DNA of 34,783 nucleotides from Flavobacteriales bacterium (GTDB lineage: Bacteria > Bacteroidota > Bacteroidia > Flavobacteriales > Flavobacteriaceae): NCBI GenBank assembly GCA_011524915.1, contig WTJH01000088.1, positions 1-34,783 on the forward strand. The letters run 5' to 3'. Position numbers and translations under genes: made by a program. This document shows positions 35-34,136 of the stretch, in pieces; the first letter of the stretch is position 1; every line of letters starts with the position of its first letter. The notes below the pieces were generated by a model. That model had not been told where the DNA came from. It was given only the letters and a program-made list of their open reading frames with translations, and made no database searches.

Positions 35-505
35 AATCATCCAGATGATTTGATTCTGATTTCTTTAAACGAAGTATATCGTCTAATTCAAAAAAATTTG
101 TGCCCCCTGTATCACTTGAGCAATTGCTCTGCCATTTGCTATTGGAATTCCTGTGACTCAAAGCGTTTATAGTAAAAGCCTCCAGGTGATAATCGCTATT
201 AGATCTTCCGATAAAATTTTGCAAAATATAGAGACGGTAGTAAAATCTTTGATTACCGTGGTTATTTGAATGGGAATGCATAAATTGTCCCAAATCATTT
301 CTATTTCCCAAGCGAATTGTAAGTGGGACCTCCCTTTTGCTGTCATTTTAGATGGAACTAAAAATGAGAAAAAATCAGGTATTGGTATTCTAGCACCATA
401 GAATAAATTGTAAAAGAAAAACAGCCTTTTTCCCAGCGTTTATTATTGGTATTCTTGTGATCGGATATGAAAGTCTGCTGATTTTTTCAATGAATCTTTT
501 TTAGA
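35..505 (+). pseudogene. cobA: Decayed uroporphyrinogen-III C-methyltransferase (SUMT/CobA) remnant
   Basis: Plus-strand fragments in three frames resemble SUMT in collinear order: NHPDDLILISLNEVYRLIQKN (35-97); IALPFAIGIPVTQSVYSKSLQVIIA...TVVI*MGMHKLSQIISISQANCKWDLPFAVILDGTKNEKKSGIGILAP (123-398, in-frame TGA at 267-269); PAFIIGILVIGYESLL (433-480). They correspond to the SUMT GIPVT, MGM..L and PA.I.IG.V blocks. Lies directly upstream of precorrin-2 dehydrogenase. Confidence 0.65.
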
Positions 506-26886: not shown

Positions 26887-26930
26887 AAATTACGCTTATG
26901 TTACGCCAATGTTAACTTAATGTTACGTAA
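26887..26930 (+). repeat. Four tandem 11-bp direct repeats (operator-like)
   Basis: AAATTACGCTT / ATGTTACGCCA / ATGTTAACTTA / ATGTTACGTAA in perfect 11-bp register, ending 15 bp before a -7 box. Confidence 0.75.
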
Positions 26931-26945
26931 TTCAGATTTTTTTTA

Positions 26946-26953
26946 TATCTTTG
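26946..26953 (+). promoter_or_regulatory. Candidate -7 box (TATCTTTG) for YwqK-like gene
   Basis: TATCTTTG matches TAnnTTTG, 28 bp upstream of ATG 26982; no clear -33 TTG, where the 11-bp repeats sit instead. Confidence 0.55.
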
Positions 26954-26981: not shown

Positions 26982-27332
26982 ATGAAAACATTAGTCTTAA
27001 GCATTTTGAGTTTATTCGTAACAACAAGCATCATTGCTCAAAACCCACAAGGTGCTGTTACTCAAAAAGAGAAAACGACGGTTTATGAGGATTATCACGC
27101 CAATGGAAGCGTAGCACAACGCGGCTATTTAAAAGAGAACAAACCCCATGGGATTTGGGAATCTTTTAATACCGATGGAGAACTTGTTATGCAAGGACGC
27201 TATGTAGACGGGCAGAAAGAAGGAACGTGGTTGTTTTGGCAAAAAGAAGGATTGATTCAAGTCGAATATAAAGCCAACCAAAAACAATCCTATCTACGCT
27301 TTTCATACGAGGAATCCTACGTAGAAAAATAA
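26982..27332 (+). CDS. YwqK/MORN-repeat-like secreted protein
   Basis: Signal peptide MKTLVLSILSLFVTTSIIAQ; YHANGSVAQRGYLKENKPHGIWESFNTDGELVMQGRYVDGQKEGTWLFWQKEG repeats. Confidence 0.85.
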   Translation: MKTLVLSILSLFVTTSIIAQNPQGAVTQKEKTTVYEDYHANGSVAQRGYLKENKPHGIWESFNTDGELVMQGRYVDGQKEGTWLFWQKEGLIQVEYKANQKQSYLRFSYEESYVEK

Positions 27333-27338
27333 AATCGT

Positions 27339-29603
27339 TTAGCGTTCCTGAACAGAGGAGTAGAAGGTATCTATCAGTTCGAACTGATTTCGGACGAGAT
27401 CCTTGGTCTTTAAAAGTATGTTGAAATAAAGCGAAGCATTTCTAGGACTACTTTCAAACTGCGCCGTTTGTTCGATCTGCCATTGTATTTTCTCTTCTAA
27501 GAGTTTATAGATATCCGCTCTAAGGGCAAATACGTCCTGATATTCCGAATCATCGGTTCCCGCTGCAAAGGCTTCCTTTGCCTCTTGCAACAGCCGTTGA
27601 AGTGATTCTTCTAGGTCCAACAAGTTTTCGACGTGTTCCCCGGACAATTTCTGGTGACTGTTATACACATGCAAGTGTGTTAGCTTAGTAAGATAATAGA
27701 GATCTTCATTTACATCTTGTAGAGCGCCCAACTGATTGACATAAAAGGTGGCCGCCTTAGTTTCTTGTGTATCTATACTTCGGATAAAGTAAAATACTCC
27801 ATTGCGTAATTCTTCCAATTCTCGATTGAGTTTACGACTCTCACGTTTGGCACTCCACAGGGGTGCCAAGTCGTAATTGGTGAGTCCGCGGACCATTAAC
27901 CCATAAGTGGTCATGACCGTTTGCATGACTGCTGCAATACTGTGTCCGCTGTCCCGAATAACATCTGTAGTATTCTGATTTTTTAATCTTAAAATGCGTT
28001 CATAGGCAACGTTTTTACGTTTGCGGTTTCGGTGGATTTGGTAGTTTTTCAGCAATAAGAATACAATTACAAATAGAATCGTACCAATGCTCCAAATCCC
28101 CCCTTTATGGATCGCAAAAACAACGATCCCTCCCAAGGTAAAAGCACTAAAGGCGGTAAAAAACCACCCTCCAATAACATTAATTACCCCAGCAACTCTA
28201 TAAACAGCACTATCAGCTCCCCAGGCACGGTCTGCAAGGGAACTTCCCATAGCTACCATAAAGGTGACATAGGTGGTTGATAAGGGTAATTTTAAGGAAG
28301 TTGCGAACGAAATTAAAACCGCAGCAACAACCAAATTGATGGAAGCTCGGAGTTTGTCAAAGGCAGGTGCATCAGGATCAATGACGGTGGCTTCTGATCC
28401 GCTGGCATAGGTTTTATCGATTTTTTGCAAAACACTTTTTGGGGTTATCCCCACAAAGGCCCGATTAAAAAAGCGGGCGCTATTGACCAACTGGCGGGCT
28501 ACAAAATTGGCCTTAAACCGTTCTCGAGTATTTTGTTGATTGGATAAATCGATAGAAGTTTTGACAACGGCACGAGCTTTTGAAGAAGTCCAAAGCGTAG
28601 CGATCATAATAGCTCCAGAGAGCAATAGAAAACTACTGGGGGTGGGAACTTTTTTGGCCAAGGCACTCATTTCGTAAAAATCCGGGTGCATACCACTGGA
28701 AACCCAAGCTTCATAGGATTGAAAGGCAGCAATGGGGACCCCGATAAAGTTGACCAAATCGTTTCCAGCAAAAGCTAATGCCAAAGCAAAAGTTCCGATC
28801 CCTATAATGACTTTATAAATATCAATTTTTAAGACTCCTTGGATCAGCCACGAAAAAACAAACCAAAAAATGAATAAGCTTCCATTGACCACCAAGGTTT
28901 CCCCCTCTAGAAATGAAAGGATGGTTTGTCCACCCAAAAGATCAAAAGAAGTATTGGCAAAAGGAGTTCCTTTAATCCCTTTAATCAGAATAAAAGTGGT
29001 GATGGCCGTTAGGGAAACGCCACCAAAAAGGGCACTCCAAAGAGGCGATTTTTGTTCAAACTTATAGGTCCATAGCATACGCGCGAGCCATTGCACCAAA
29101 GCTCCGATACTGAAGGCAATCACAACCGAAAGTAAAATCCCTAAAATGATTTGAGCAGCCTTTTCAGTGTTGATATAGGACCCGAGGGTGCTGAGATCGT
29201 TCCCGGCATCTACAATCTTGATAATAGACATGATCACCGCAGCTCCCAACAGTTCAAAAACAATAGAGACTGTGGTTGATGTCGGCATCCCAAAAGAATT
29301 GAAAAAATCCAACAGGAGGATATCCGTCATCATCACTGCCAAAAAAATGCTGATGATCTCATTGAAGTAGAAAGCACTGGGGTTAAAGATTCCTTTGCGA
29401 GCTACTTCCATCATTCCGCTGGAAAATACAGCCCCACAAAGAATCCCAATACTGGCTAGGATCATTAAATTCCGAAACGAAATCGCCTTTGAACCAATGG
29501 CAGAATTCAAAAAATTTACGGCGTCGTTACTGACCCCTACAATCAAATCTCCTACGGCTAGTAGCGATAGCAGTAGGATTAATCCCAAATAATAGCTTTC
29601 CAT
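27339..29603 (-). CDS. PiT family inorganic phosphate transporter with helical C-terminal extension
   Basis: PiT signatures: GVSNDAVNFLNSAIGS near the N-terminus, AFAGNDLVNFIGVPIAA, and TSLKLPLSTTYVTFMVAMGSSLADRAWG; 754 aa with ~220 aa soluble helical C-terminus. Confidence 0.93.
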   Translation of the reverse strand: MESYYLGLILLLSLLAVGDLIVGVSNDAVNFLNSAIGSKAISFRNLMILASIGILCGAVFSSGMMEVARKGIFNPSAFYFNEIISIFLAVMMTDILLLDFFNSFGMPTSTTVSIVFELLGAAVIMSIIKIVDAGNDLSTLGSYINTEKAAQIILGILLSVVIAFSIGALVQWLARMLWTYKFEQKSPLWSALFGGVSLTAITTFILIKGIKGTPFANTSFDLLGGQTILSFLEGETLVVNGSLFIFWFVFSWLIQGVLKIDIYKVIIGIGTFALALAFAGNDLVNFIGVPIAAFQSYEAWVSSGMHPDFYEMSALAKKVPTPSSFLLLSGAIMIATLWTSSKARAVVKTSIDLSNQQNTRERFKANFVARQLVNSARFFNRAFVGITPKSVLQKIDKTYASGSEATVIDPDAPAFDKLRASINLVVAAVLISFATSLKLPLSTTYVTFMVAMGSSLADRAWGADSAVYRVAGVINVIGGWFFTAFSAFTLGGIVVFAIHKGGIWSIGTILFVIVFLLLKNYQIHRNRKRKNVAYERILRLKNQNTTDVIRDSGHSIAAVMQTVMTTYGLMVRGLTNYDLAPLWSAKRESRKLNRELEELRNGVFYFIRSIDTQETKAATFYVNQLGALQDVNEDLYYLTKLTHLHVYNSHQKLSGEHVENLLDLEESLQRLLQEAKEAFAAGTDDSEYQDVFALRADIYKLLEEKIQWQIEQTAQFESSPRNASLYFNILLKTKDLVRNQFELIDTFYSSVQER

Positions 29604-29650: not shown

Positions 29651-32473
29651 TTAAAATTTATAACTATAGCCCAAACTTATGGCCGTTCCTAAAGAACGCC
29701 TTGAGAATATTTTAGATTCGTCTCCGTAGGAAATGAATTGACTTAATCGATCATCGTTTAATAGGTTTTTAACTTTCAAACTAATCGTACTGTTTTTGAG
29801 CTCCCCAAAAGTATAGCTTGCGTTTAAGTTAAGGCTGTTAAACGGCATGGTGTAAACATCTGGAACTTCTCCAATTCCTACGACCTGTAGGGTTCGCCCT
29901 TGGGTATTGAAATATAACCCAGCATCTAAACCTAGGTCTGTATTGGAGTAGTTAATCCCTGTATTGATCAAGAAAGGGGATTGTCCTTGCAGGTCTCGAG
30001 TGGTGGGAACCGTTTCCCCATCTCGTACAATTCCATCTTCCGTTCGAGATTCATATTCCCCACCTGGAGACTGATCCATTTTGAGTTCTGCTTCGATAAG
30101 GGAGCCATTAAAATTGAGGTTGAAGTATTTTAAGGCATCGGCAAACACTCCTAAATTTTTTCGAATTTCAACTTCGGTACCAATAACCGTAGCTTCACCC
30201 ATATTTCGAGGAGTAAAGTTATCGGGTGCAGAGGCACTAAAGGTTACTAATTCGATGGGGTCCTTAAGGGTCTTGTAGAATGCACTAAAAGCAATGATTT
30301 CTCCTGGATTATCGAACCTTTCATACCGAATGTCAAAGTTATTGATGTAGGACGGCACTAGATCGAGGTTTCCAATAAAGAATCGGTTGTTTAACGGATC
30401 AAAAATCTGTGCATTGGAAACTTCTTTAAAGGAAGGTCTGGCAACCGTTTGTGCAAAAGAAGCTCTAAGGTTTACTTTGTCATTGCTGCTGTAAACAAGA
30501 TTTACAGAGGGGAAGAAATCAGTTTCATTGATAATGGTTTGATTTCTAATTTGAACGTCGTTTTGATCGATCCCTCTAAACTTTTGTCTATAGTTTTCGA
30601 TTCGAAGTCCGATGATGGCACGTAGTTTTTCGATCGGTTGAAATTCTTGTGAAAGATATCCGGAGTAATTGATTTGTGCACTTGAAAATTGATCCGCCTC
30701 TCCTGATCCCCGAGCGATATAGGTTCCTTGGTTGGTCGCAGTTGTCCAGATATTACTATCCAAGAAAAGTGTATTGGGGTTTCCTTCAGAAAAATCAAAT
30801 TGACTTCGTCGTTTGATCTTCACTAAAAAGTTTTCGATATTAAAATCTCGAGTTTTTAAAGAGCGGAATAAACCGGCCTTAAATTTTGCGTTGCGCTCGA
30901 ACAATTGAAATTCTTTTACAGCATCTACTTTACTGACATAAGAAACCTCATCTAAATAGCGCCAAATACGCAATGGGTCTCCCGATTCACTGGGTTCGAT
31001 TTCAAATCCTCCATCGTCAACTCGGAAGGGAGTCACACGAATGTCCTTGTCATAATTTTTATTAATTGTTGGAGAGAGTTTCCACTCGAGGGTAAAACTT
31101 CCTTCCTGGAAGTAGTGTTTTCCTGTTAAAAGGATATTAGTGACCGATTTCTGATTATAATCCATTACATCTTTCACTAAAGTGTTCGAGCCATAAATAA
31201 AGTTAGATTCTCTGAATTTAGCTGCGGTAGACACTCCGTTTTGAAGGTGCAGTACATTGAGTTTGTATTTCGATAATTCTCCTTTGAGGCTCAATCCTAA
31301 CAATCCACTAAGTAAGACGTTTTGAGTACTGATTTCTCCCACTTGAGTTCTGTTAGTTAACAGATTTAAATCAGAAGTATTGTTGGTGTTTTTGATATAA
31401 GAAGAAGCCTCGAAATCATCGTAATATTCAAAGTCTTTATCGTATGCGATTGAGCTTACCAATCCAAACTGTTTGTCCCCAATCTGAAATTGATTTCCAT
31501 AATTAAAAGAAGCACTAAAATTTAAGGGACTAGTAGCTTGTAGTGGGGCTAACTCTGGATTAAAGGATTGTGTTAAACGAGTTAACTCTTCGTTTCCTTG
31601 AGATGAACTAGGAATTTCTGTGCTACTAGATACGGGTAAATCTCGTGTTTGTGAGTCAAATCCAAAGATATCAGTACTCGACCCGTTTTGTTTTAGAAAA
31701 CCGGATTGAAAATGCATCCGAGGATTGTATTCCATGGAATAAGAGAAGGACATATTTTTTTGGGCAGGGATATCTTTAGTAATAATATCGACAATCCCTC
31801 CAGTAAAATCTGCTGGATATTCGGCTGTAGCCGACTTTAATACCATAACATTATCGATAATTCCAGATGGGAAAATATCCATCTGTATCGAATTTCGGTC
31901 GGGATCCAAACCAGGAATATCCATTCCGTTAAGTATGGACTTGGTATAGCGGTCTCCTAAGCCCCGTACATAGACATATTTTCCGCCCTGTACCGATACT
32001 CCCGGAACATTTTTGATGGCATTAGCTAAGTCGCTAGCTCCTATTTTTTTAAAGTTTTGAGAAGAAATTCCGTCCAATAGATTGGCTGATTTTTTCTGTA
32101 CGGCTAAAACCGCTTGTTCAGAATTCCGTAAAGCTTGGACGGTAACCACGACCTCCTCCATTTGTTCTGCTGCAGAGCCCAAGCTGAGATTAACTTCCTC
32201 CGTAGCTCCGGCAATCACGTTTACATTTTCAACACGGACAGATTCATATCCGACAAAAGAAAATATCAAGGTGTAAGTTCCTTCTGAGAGTTCGAGGGTA
32301 TATAAACCGTCAAAATCAGTGGTTGTCCCTTCTGTGGAACCCTCTATCAAGACATTAGCAAAGGGGAGGGGTTCTTGGAAATCTTTGTCCTGAACCAAAC
32401 CTTTGATGTATCCGCTTTGTCCCCACATCCCTAAAGGAAGAATGGCCAAACAAAGAATTAAAAATTTACGCAT
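29651..32473 (-). CDS. TonB-dependent receptor with N-terminal carboxypeptidase-regulatory-like domain
   Basis: Signal peptide MRKFLILCLAILPLGMWGQ; GLVQDKDFQEPLPFANVLIEGSTEGTTTDFDGLYTLEL; plug NVPGVSVQGGKYVYVRGLGDRYTKSILNGMDIPG; C-terminal beta-barrel ending GYSYKF. ATG 32473 preferred; track ORF extends to 32569 into an upstream non-signal leader. Confidence 0.95.
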   Translation of the reverse strand: MRKFLILCLAILPLGMWGQSGYIKGLVQDKDFQEPLPFANVLIEGSTEGTTTDFDGLYTLELSEGTYTLIFSFVGYESVRVENVNVIAGATEEVNLSLGSAAEQMEEVVVTVQALRNSEQAVLAVQKKSANLLDGISSQNFKKIGASDLANAIKNVPGVSVQGGKYVYVRGLGDRYTKSILNGMDIPGLDPDRNSIQMDIFPSGIIDNVMVLKSATAEYPADFTGGIVDIITKDIPAQKNMSFSYSMEYNPRMHFQSGFLKQNGSSTDIFGFDSQTRDLPVSSSTEIPSSSQGNEELTRLTQSFNPELAPLQATSPLNFSASFNYGNQFQIGDKQFGLVSSIAYDKDFEYYDDFEASSYIKNTNNTSDLNLLTNRTQVGEISTQNVLLSGLLGLSLKGELSKYKLNVLHLQNGVSTAAKFRESNFIYGSNTLVKDVMDYNQKSVTNILLTGKHYFQEGSFTLEWKLSPTINKNYDKDIRVTPFRVDDGGFEIEPSESGDPLRIWRYLDEVSYVSKVDAVKEFQLFERNAKFKAGLFRSLKTRDFNIENFLVKIKRRSQFDFSEGNPNTLFLDSNIWTTATNQGTYIARGSGEADQFSSAQINYSGYLSQEFQPIEKLRAIIGLRIENYRQKFRGIDQNDVQIRNQTIINETDFFPSVNLVYSSNDKVNLRASFAQTVARPSFKEVSNAQIFDPLNNRFFIGNLDLVPSYINNFDIRYERFDNPGEIIAFSAFYKTLKDPIELVTFSASAPDNFTPRNMGEATVIGTEVEIRKNLGVFADALKYFNLNFNGSLIEAELKMDQSPGGEYESRTEDGIVRDGETVPTTRDLQGQSPFLINTGINYSNTDLGLDAGLYFNTQGRTLQVVGIGEVPDVYTMPFNSLNLNASYTFGELKNSTISLKVKNLLNDDRLSQFISYGDESKIFSRRSLGTAISLGYSYKF

Positions 32474-32529
32474 AATATTTTGTATTGATGTGACTCCTAT
32501 GTCTCGGGAGAATCTAATTTTTGGATGGA

Positions 32530-34008
32530 TTAAAAGTCTAAGGCTCCGCTTGTAAAGGCCAAGGTCCATTCAAAGTTGCTTGTATCGGCGCCTATACCTT
32601 CTGAAGGGTTTGCTAAAGAAGTATTTTCGCTTTGTAAACGAGCTATAGCAGCAGCAATAGAAGCGGACTCTGCAACGGCAGATGGGTCTCTAGAAACATT
32701 GCTGTCAAATGCATCAAAAGCTCCGTTGTTATCAGACACAGCATCTGTTGGAACACTCCATTTTATGGCAAAGATGCTTGTGAACGACTTTCCAATAGAA
32801 CTGTTGAATTCGTTATTGTTAAAGAGGAGATCTCCTGCCTGATATGCATCGAAAATTGTAGGGTTGTTCGCTACTTTATCTCCAACTTCTTTGGTGCTTC
32901 CATCAACAACAGAGGTGTATTTGGTACCATCTCCATCGAATTCTATATCAGCATCAACACCAAAATTGAAGAAATAGGAATTGGTGATGGATCCAACAGC
33001 ATAACTTCTAAAGTCAGCAATTTCTCTTCCTTCTGCGGCATTGCCAGGACCTTTAGCGGTGGCATTGCTGATACTAAACTTGTTTCGGCTTTCAGGAGAA
33101 AGGGCAGTACCCTCACGGCCATCAATTTCAAAGGCATGATCAGAATCTTCTCCAGCGATATAGACGATATTAGAGATATTTCCTGCATAGGATTGGTCAA
33201 TGTCATAAGCATCATCTCCCTGAGACCATACTACAGCATTGGTAAGGTTTACGTTTCCACCAAAAAACTCGATCCCGTCATCTTGGTTGGCATATACTTC
33301 AATATTGGAAATGGTGGTACCAGCGCCTACCCCTCCAAGAGTAAGTCCGTTGATTTCGTTTCCAGCACCTATATTTGTTCCTCCGTGACGGATAGAAATA
33401 TATTTGATGATTCCTGAATCGTCGGAATCATTTGTTCCACCATAGAGCCCATAGCTATCTGAAGCAGGGATCCCTTCGATTTGAAGTTCGGTTACATTAT
33501 TTTTAAAAGAACAACGCGCATTTCCTAAAACAATAATTCCTCCCCAAAGTCCTGTATCGGCTGCTGTCAAACGGTTAGCTGCACTCGGATACGTTTGATC
33601 TGCATAAATGGGGTCATCTTCAGCAGTAAAAATAATCGGATGATCTGCAGAACCAATAGCGTTTAATTTTCCACCTCGTGCAACAATTAATGCAGCTGCA
33701 TCTTCAATATCACTACTGGTAAGGCCTTTAATAACAGTTCCTTCTTCAATGGTAAGGGTAACACCAGAGTTGACCACGACTTTATCATCAAGGAAGTGAA
33801 TGACATTGTTGTACCAAATTTCATCCGCAGTGATGATTCCAGTATGGGTTTGATCTGTAGTAGGGCGATTGTTATTTCCACTTCCAGGATTGTTTCCATC
33901 TCCCGAATCGGATGAAACTAGAACCTCAACTATTTCTGTTTCAACTTCGCAAGCGACAGTTCCAAAAACAACGAGACTTAAGATTAAAGACTTTAAGAAG
34001 GTTTTCAT
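32530..34008 (-). CDS. Secreted beta-helix-like lipoprotein, partner gene upstream of TonB receptor
   Basis: MKTFLKSLILSLVVFGTVAC lipoprotein-like signal, acidic residues after Cys, Asn/Gly-rich linker, then right-handed beta-helix-like repeats (GVTLTIEEGTVIKG, GIIVLGNARC, ISNIEVYANQDDGIEFFGGNVNLTNAVVWSQGDDAYDID). Confidence 0.8.
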   Translation of the reverse strand: MKTFLKSLILSLVVFGTVACEVETEIVEVLVSSDSGDGNNPGSGNNNRPTTDQTHTGIITADEIWYNNVIHFLDDKVVVNSGVTLTIEEGTVIKGLTSSDIEDAAALIVARGGKLNAIGSADHPIIFTAEDDPIYADQTYPSAANRLTAADTGLWGGIIVLGNARCSFKNNVTELQIEGIPASDSYGLYGGTNDSDDSGIIKYISIRHGGTNIGAGNEINGLTLGGVGAGTTISNIEVYANQDDGIEFFGGNVNLTNAVVWSQGDDAYDIDQSYAGNISNIVYIAGEDSDHAFEIDGREGTALSPESRNKFSISNATAKGPGNAAEGREIADFRSYAVGSITNSYFFNFGVDADIEFDGDGTKYTSVVDGSTKEVGDKVANNPTIFDAYQAGDLLFNNNEFNSSIGKSFTSIFAIKWSVPTDAVSDNNGAFDAFDSNVSRDPSAVAESASIAAAIARLQSENTSLANPSEGIGADTSNFEWTLAFTSGALDF

Positions 34009-34027: not shown

Positions 34028-34035
34028 CAAATATA
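34028..34035 (-). promoter_or_regulatory. Candidate -7 box (TATATTTG) for beta-helix lipoprotein / TonB receptor genes
   Basis: Plus-strand CAAATATA at 34028-34035, 20 bp upstream of ATG 34008. Confidence 0.5.
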
Positions 34036-34089: not shown

Positions 34090-34136
34090 TTAAGCTTTTG
34101 TTAAGGGCAAACAAAGGAGTTAACACAGGCTTAACA
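34090..34136 (-). repeat. 11-bp-period TTAA(C/G) direct repeats in the dgt/lipoprotein divergent region
   Basis: Plus strand TTAAGC-N5-TTAAGG (34090-34106) and TTAACA-CAGGC-TTAACA (34120-34136). In sense of the minus-strand gene: TGTTAAGCCTG TGTTAACTCCT. Confidence 0.65.

Follow-up and report, generated by a model that had tools for sequence, protein, structure and literature searches.

A conserved array of 11-bp direct repeats, probably a Pho box, upstream of a secreted YwqK-like gene in flavobacteria

The repeat array and its neighbourhood

The window, that is the whole stretch of 34,783 nucleotides analysed here (contig WTJH01000088.1 of the Flavobacteriales assembly GCA_011524915.1), carries a short gene for a secreted YwqK-like protein, a convergent three-gene operon ending in a phosphate transporter gene and, upstream of both, copies of a short tandem repeat (Table 1). 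The operon's lipoprotein resembles, as judged by eye, the low-phosphate lipoproteins of Flavobacterium johnsoniae, a species in which a TonB-dependent receptor and a lipoprotein encoded beside phoBR rise by 8-10 log2 units on phosphate depletion, the phosphate-starvation response of Flavobacterium being very large (PMC8115612). The lipoprotein/TonB receptor pair of the window is presumably homologous to that phoBR-adjacent pair. As called, the TonB receptor ORF shares its first 40 bp with the 3' end of the lipoprotein gene (window 32473-32569), and its true start probably lies at an internal MRKFLILCLAILPLG signal peptide. The gene order dgt, lipoprotein/TonB receptor, PHO4 or oprP and an opposite-strand YwqK-like gene, often followed by nrdA-nrdB, is found in many Flavobacteriaceae (L004-L083). 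The literature search returned no paper linking YwqK to phosphate and likewise no phosphate-limitation data for YwqK-like genes.

Four 11-bp blocks in exact register had been described in front of the YwqK-like gene in an earlier note made from the letters of the window, and the sequence at 26887-26930 is as described. Read directly, TGTTAC at 26899, TGTTAA at 26910 and TGTTAC at 26921 follow one another in exact 11-bp register, giving the tandem direct repeats of 11-nt period that characterise a PHO box. The tandem array is therefore real, but the count of four has to be redrawn: the unit at 26888 (AATTAC) is a poor match compared with the three good repeats and represents an extra degenerate repeat, while the degenerate fourth unit is found at 26932. 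The core is placed from 26899 onwards because the conserved distance between the first TGT and TAnnTTTG matches when counted from that position, and the predicted core array is made up of the units at 26899, 26910 and 26921 together with the degenerate unit at 26932.

Table 1. Positions of the repeats, promoter elements and genes considered in this study (window coordinates unless a contig is named).
Feature	Position	Strand	Remarks
Degenerate upstream repeat AAATTACGCTT	26887..26897	+	In phase; outside the conserved core; absent from the register shared by relatives
Core repeat 1 ATGTTACGCCA	26898..26908	+	TGT at 26899, with 47 bp to the -7 element
Core repeat 2 ATGTTAACTTA	26909..26919	+	Sequence, shuffle test
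Core repeat 3 ATGTTACGTAA	26920..26930	+	Covers the position of a -33 element
Degenerate fourth repeat TTCAGATTTTT	26931..26941	+	Relatives carry AATGTAAA in the same slot; inferred from alignment
-7 promoter element TATCTTTG	26946..26953	+	Perfect TAnnTTTG; distance conserved
Secreted 116-aa YwqK-like / MORN_2 repeat protein, predicted controlled gene	26982..27332	+	PF07661 E 3.5e-5, short of the Pfam cut-off
Operon gene 3, PHO4-family inorganic phosphate transporter	27339..29603	-	PF01384 E 1.9e-23; convergent with the YwqK-like gene
Operon gene 2, TonB-dependent receptor	29651..32569	-	
Operon gene 1, 492-aa predicted lipoprotein	32530..34008	-	No match in Pfam; neighbourhoods of homologues examined
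Candidate -7 element TATATTTG of the pho operon	34028..34035	-	Weak; distance unlike that of the YwqK-like gene
Second box TGTTAAGCCTGTGTTAA	34120..34136	-	112-128 bp before the pho operon start codon, pointing at the operon
Small ORF array of the same genome	Contig C147, about 180-310	-	L095/L240

A single copy of TGTTAM-N5-TGTTAM-N5-TGTTAM is present in the window and none of 100 dinucleotide shuffles produced one, and the two-unit form TGTTAM-N5-TGTTAM occurs three times, against 0.01 expected. Throughout the genome assembly (2.07 Mb, 88% complete) the exact two-unit form was likewise found only three times, twice within the array and once on the minus strand at 34120-34136, so that its sole other copy in the genome fronts the neighbouring lipoprotein-TonB receptor-PHO4 operon. 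No well-placed -7 element was found for this second box in the window.

Conservation and distance to the -7 element

Loci of relatives were gathered using the PHO4 protein as query, and the neighbouring genes were then mapped. Among 35 Flavobacteriaceae YwqK-like genes, 74% carry, no more than 200 bp upstream, a sequence that agrees with the three-unit motif of the window at 15 or more of its 18 positions, a threshold reached by 0.6% of dinucleotide shuffles. Control upstream regions of the same loci gave 0% (nrdA), 0% (marC), 11% (nrdB) and 31% (dgt), many of the dgt matches sitting in intergenic regions common to divergent TonB-receptor or oprP genes. In the YwqK-like promoters the spacing between TGTTA words peaks at 11 and 33 bp, and unsupervised motif discovery returned TTTAATGTTAAtTTAATGTTAaGTAAATGTTgaTTtAATGTAAA, which corresponds to four tandem AATGTTAA units. 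Conservation in relatives, named in the earlier note as a test on which its proposal depended, is thus evident from both the 35-locus scan and motif discovery. That 100% of the YwqK promoters exceeded the threshold of the unit profile is circular and carries no weight. The strict three-unit pattern gave 4 matches in 60 relatives, of which a single one could be placed with confidence at a YwqK-like gene, and was dropped as a regulon classifier, being too rare.

An origin of the repeats by chance in an AT-rich gap, which would fit the AT-rich flanks and the one poor repeat among the four, has next to no probability when set against the shuffling result and an in-register conservation that is strong and spans dozens of genera; it was regarded as already refuted by this conservation.

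The consensus of the -7 element in Bacteroidota is TAnnTTTG (PMC9723704). The gap between the end of core repeat 3 (26930) and the -7 element is 15 bp, and no TTTG is found at the -33 distance upstream of TATCTTTG, a position which sits inside the last repeat; the sequence bears out both the 15-bp distance and the lack of an obvious -33 element that had been reported for this promoter. Among the 26 YwqK-like promoters having a TAnnTTTG element, 19 place it 46-48 bp from the first repeat, so that the array stands where a PHO box is expected, just upstream of the -10/-7 element and in place of the -35/-33 element. The same distance in the window is 47 bp when counted from 26899 and reads 36 if the array is aligned one unit later.

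This arrangement bears on the direction of control. A Pho box that represses the YwqK-like gene by covering its -33 region is conceivable, in that the repeats overlap the -33 position and OmpR-family regulators can either activate or repress, but the promoter offers no recognisable -33 element to block, the fixed distance and phase to the -7 element suit contact with sigma, and the placement matches that of PhoB-activated promoters, in which 10 bp separate the boxes from the -10 element (PMC1906773); repression is accordingly considered very improbable. Activation by a PhoB-type regulator is the likeliest mode because of the established behaviour of the family (PMC4415409) and the fixed spacing.

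Recurrence at phosphate genes

The YwqK-gene promoters of relatives, without that of the window, were used to build a sequence-only profile. In the genome under study its best match was the array of the window (E 7.5e-5), followed by a site on contig C147 (E 0.036). Among 36 relatives (E <= 1e-3) most matches precede YwqK-like genes, with 3 at oprP or oprP-pst promoters and 4 before a small ORF. Across 148 genomes of the phylum (E <= 0.005) matches again adjoined YwqK-like genes. Further matches, independent of the promoters used for training, lie next to pstS, pstC, DUF47/Pit, PHO4 and Porin_O_P genes, the adjacent pstS and pstC being identified by TIGR00975 (409 bits) and TIGR02138 (321 bits), respectively. 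Several of these phosphate-gene matches belong to other classes of Bacteroidota: outside Flavobacteriales 8 matches were obtained, 4 adjoining a pst, Pit, PHO4 or Porin_O_P-type gene and the other 4 a TonB receptor or genes of unknown function. The evidence is confined to profile matches around E <= 0.005, and weaker ones (E 0.001-0.05) precede mostly unrelated genes.

Direct inspection of promoters gave a comparable picture. The upstream regions of 30 phoB-type genes contained 11 TGTTA pairs at exactly 11 bp in the sense orientation and none in antisense, and 30 oprP promoters contained 14 TGTT[AT] pairs of the same spacing, in reverse orientation. Pairs at 11 bp also occur in distant families, both in the pstS-phoB intergenic region and between phoU and a downstream transporter-like gene. 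The phoB promoter of the genome under study showed no clear array. As expected of a PHO box, the motif therefore recurs from genome to genome at phosphate genes (pst, pit, oprP, phoB), PhoX promoters, with almost no 11-bp pairs, being the exception. The check proposed in the earlier note, a scan for enrichment between genes and near pho functions, finds the motif intergenic and concentrated at the PHO4 operon, phoB, oprP, pst and Pit, which makes for a strong link to phosphate.

The orientation of the arrays differs between targets. At YwqK-like, phoB and small-protein genes they point toward the gene, whereas those of oprP and several pst genes face away from it, typically with GGAAACATTaagtTAACATT just before a -7-like TTaTTTG, which suggests two architectures for one motif. 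In the reversed arrays at oprP/pst (e.g. L133, L136, L139, L149, L157, L271, L274) the second unit is often TGTTTCC.

Arrays also precede an unannotated ORF of about 40-45 residues (L123, L124, L126, L269 and, in the genome under study, L095/L240), which encodes a candidate small protein of the same regulon. Its products share a C-terminal motif, seen as YARKYRxxYYxLL, YAKKCRHSYLRML and KYAENCRHSFNSML and, in the genome under study, as MNLQKLLKKRAVVPQLIRKFQYYARKYRHVYYALMFDKPL. Upstream of oprP (Porin_O_P), outside the window, a block TATTAGTTTTTGTCG is followed by a hairpin and a T-run (for example L043, L058, L061, L104, L106, L070, L102, L025). The block matches, letter for letter, the reverse complement of the oprP leader CGACAAAAACTAATA, located about 125 bp downstream; the two pair over 12-17 nt at roughly 25 loci, compensatory changes are seen in L070, L102 and L025, and in relatives the close inverted TATTAGTTTTTGTCG/CGACAAAAACTAATA pair was seen at the oprP locus only. 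This block is a candidate adjacent small RNA of about 70 nt that may control the phosphate porin. Rfam gave no match near oprP or near the arrays at small-protein genes.

Regulators, related boxes and proposed mechanism

Only two OmpR-type regulators are encoded in the genome under study, a PhoB-like protein (L089), which scores 215 bits against TIGR02154 (cut-off 296 bits) and whose gene is followed by a kinase gene, and RprY (L090); L089 provides the PhoB-type regulator that a PHO box implies. Tested against the ArcA model, the two scored 121 and 122 bits, the cut-off being 334. An ArcA box bound by ArcA was rejected, the OmpR-type regulators being PhoB-like and RprY only. Profile matches at E <= 0.01 occurred in 23 of 32 sampled genomes with a strong PhoB match and in 0 of 5 without (Fisher p = 0.005, uncorrected for kinship).

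The array might alternatively be the operator of another OmpR-family regulator, either RprY or one absent from the incomplete assembly, responding to envelope or redox stress and with phosphate genes as part of its regulon. RprY is indeed present and the assembly is 88% complete, the repeats resemble the E. coli ArcA box in sequence (PMC3798270), and the PhoP sites of Riemerella have been interpreted as redox-related (PMC9603813). Yet the upstream regions of 19 RprY-type genes, which RprY need not autoregulate, contained no 11-bp TGTTA pairs, against the 11 found at phoB; the independent matches fall on pst, Pit, PHO4 and oprP genes; and the association with strong PhoB matches, kinship uncorrected, points the same way. 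This alternative is regarded as unlikely, if less so than repression.

We consider it probable that the array is a Pho box, bound by a PhoB/PhoP-type regulator and activating the secreted YwqK-like protein at low phosphate. The activator-type interpretation put forward from the window alone gains support from the conservation of the array and its concentration at phosphate genes, from which we infer PhoB as the binding protein, activation as its effect and phosphate as the signal.

Resemblances to known boxes are manifold. The Bacillus PhoP box consists of TTAACA repeats, a TTAAC-type half-site resembling the array. The cyanobacterial SphR box CTTAACCT, with its 3-bp linker, likewise has TTAAC-type half-sites and an 11-bp period (PMC1906773); both boxes belong to phyla and regulators different from those of the array. 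The E. coli PHO box of PhoB is similar in having at least two head-to-tail 11-nt direct repeats just before the core promoter element (PMC4415409, PMC1906773), but differs in its half-site (CTGTCAT, versus AATGTTAA here), while the arrays described here usually have four repeats, a TAnnTTTG promoter and a reverse orientation at oprP/pst. The ArcA box of E. coli, an 18-bp direct-repeat pair at an 11-bp distance, which may be extended to five repeats (PMC3798270), shares the 11-bp direct repeats, two to five per site, and a similar sequence, but this genome is without ArcA and the targets of the array are phosphate genes.

The closest precedent comes from Riemerella anatipestifer, also of the Flavobacteriales, in which DAP-seq of PhoP yielded a motif similar to the ArcA box and showed PhoP bound at its own promoter (PMC9603813). 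The core of that motif, TTTAACA, is TGTTAAA read on the opposite strand. The Riemerella PhoP motif appears, on comparison of the letters, to be the same sequence as the array. In the accessible text of that study the motif is tied to virulence and redox, not presented as a phosphate operator, and, unlike here, repeat number, -7 spacing and a pst/oprP/PHO4/YwqK regulon are left undefined (PMC9603813). Because the 583 PhoP peaks reported there have mostly non-phosphate targets (PMC9603813) and an earlier Riemerella paper found pstS raised, not lowered, in the mutant, the regulator may act beyond phosphate control. The suggestion of an undescribed Pho box therefore holds in part: the motif had apparently already been seen in the Riemerella data, while no definition of a Pho box or its regulon for Bacteroidota was found in the open-access literature.

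In the proposed mechanism, phosphate scarcity would lead a PhoR-type kinase to phosphorylate the PhoB/PhoP-type response regulator (L089), two dimers of which would line up head to tail along one side of the helix, occupying four 11-bp half-sites (AATGTTAAnnn). Since the array covers the -33 position and ends about 14 bp before the -7 element, the bound regulator would replace the missing -33 element and recruit the primary sigma factor, switching on the secreted YwqK-like protein; the second copy of the box would serve the lipoprotein-TonB receptor-PHO4 operon.

The array is thus real and evolutionarily conserved, a DNA switch that very probably induces phosphate-starvation genes in flavobacteria; the same switch appears to operate across the phylum Bacteroidota. 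The YwqK-like gene would be an unexpected and highly conserved target. We lean, with some reserve, towards the broader proposal that TGTTA-N6-TGTTA in either orientation is a whole-phylum Pho box, whose most conserved targets in Flavobacteriaceae are the unstudied secreted YwqK-like protein and the unannotated YARKYR-type protein of about 42 residues, not phosphatases; if true, these two proteins would join the core of the response to phosphate starvation as new members. Bacteroidota play a major part in recycling organic phosphorus in soils and in the sea, and a working motif would allow the regulon to be predicted from any genome, providing new targets and testable sites in culturable species.
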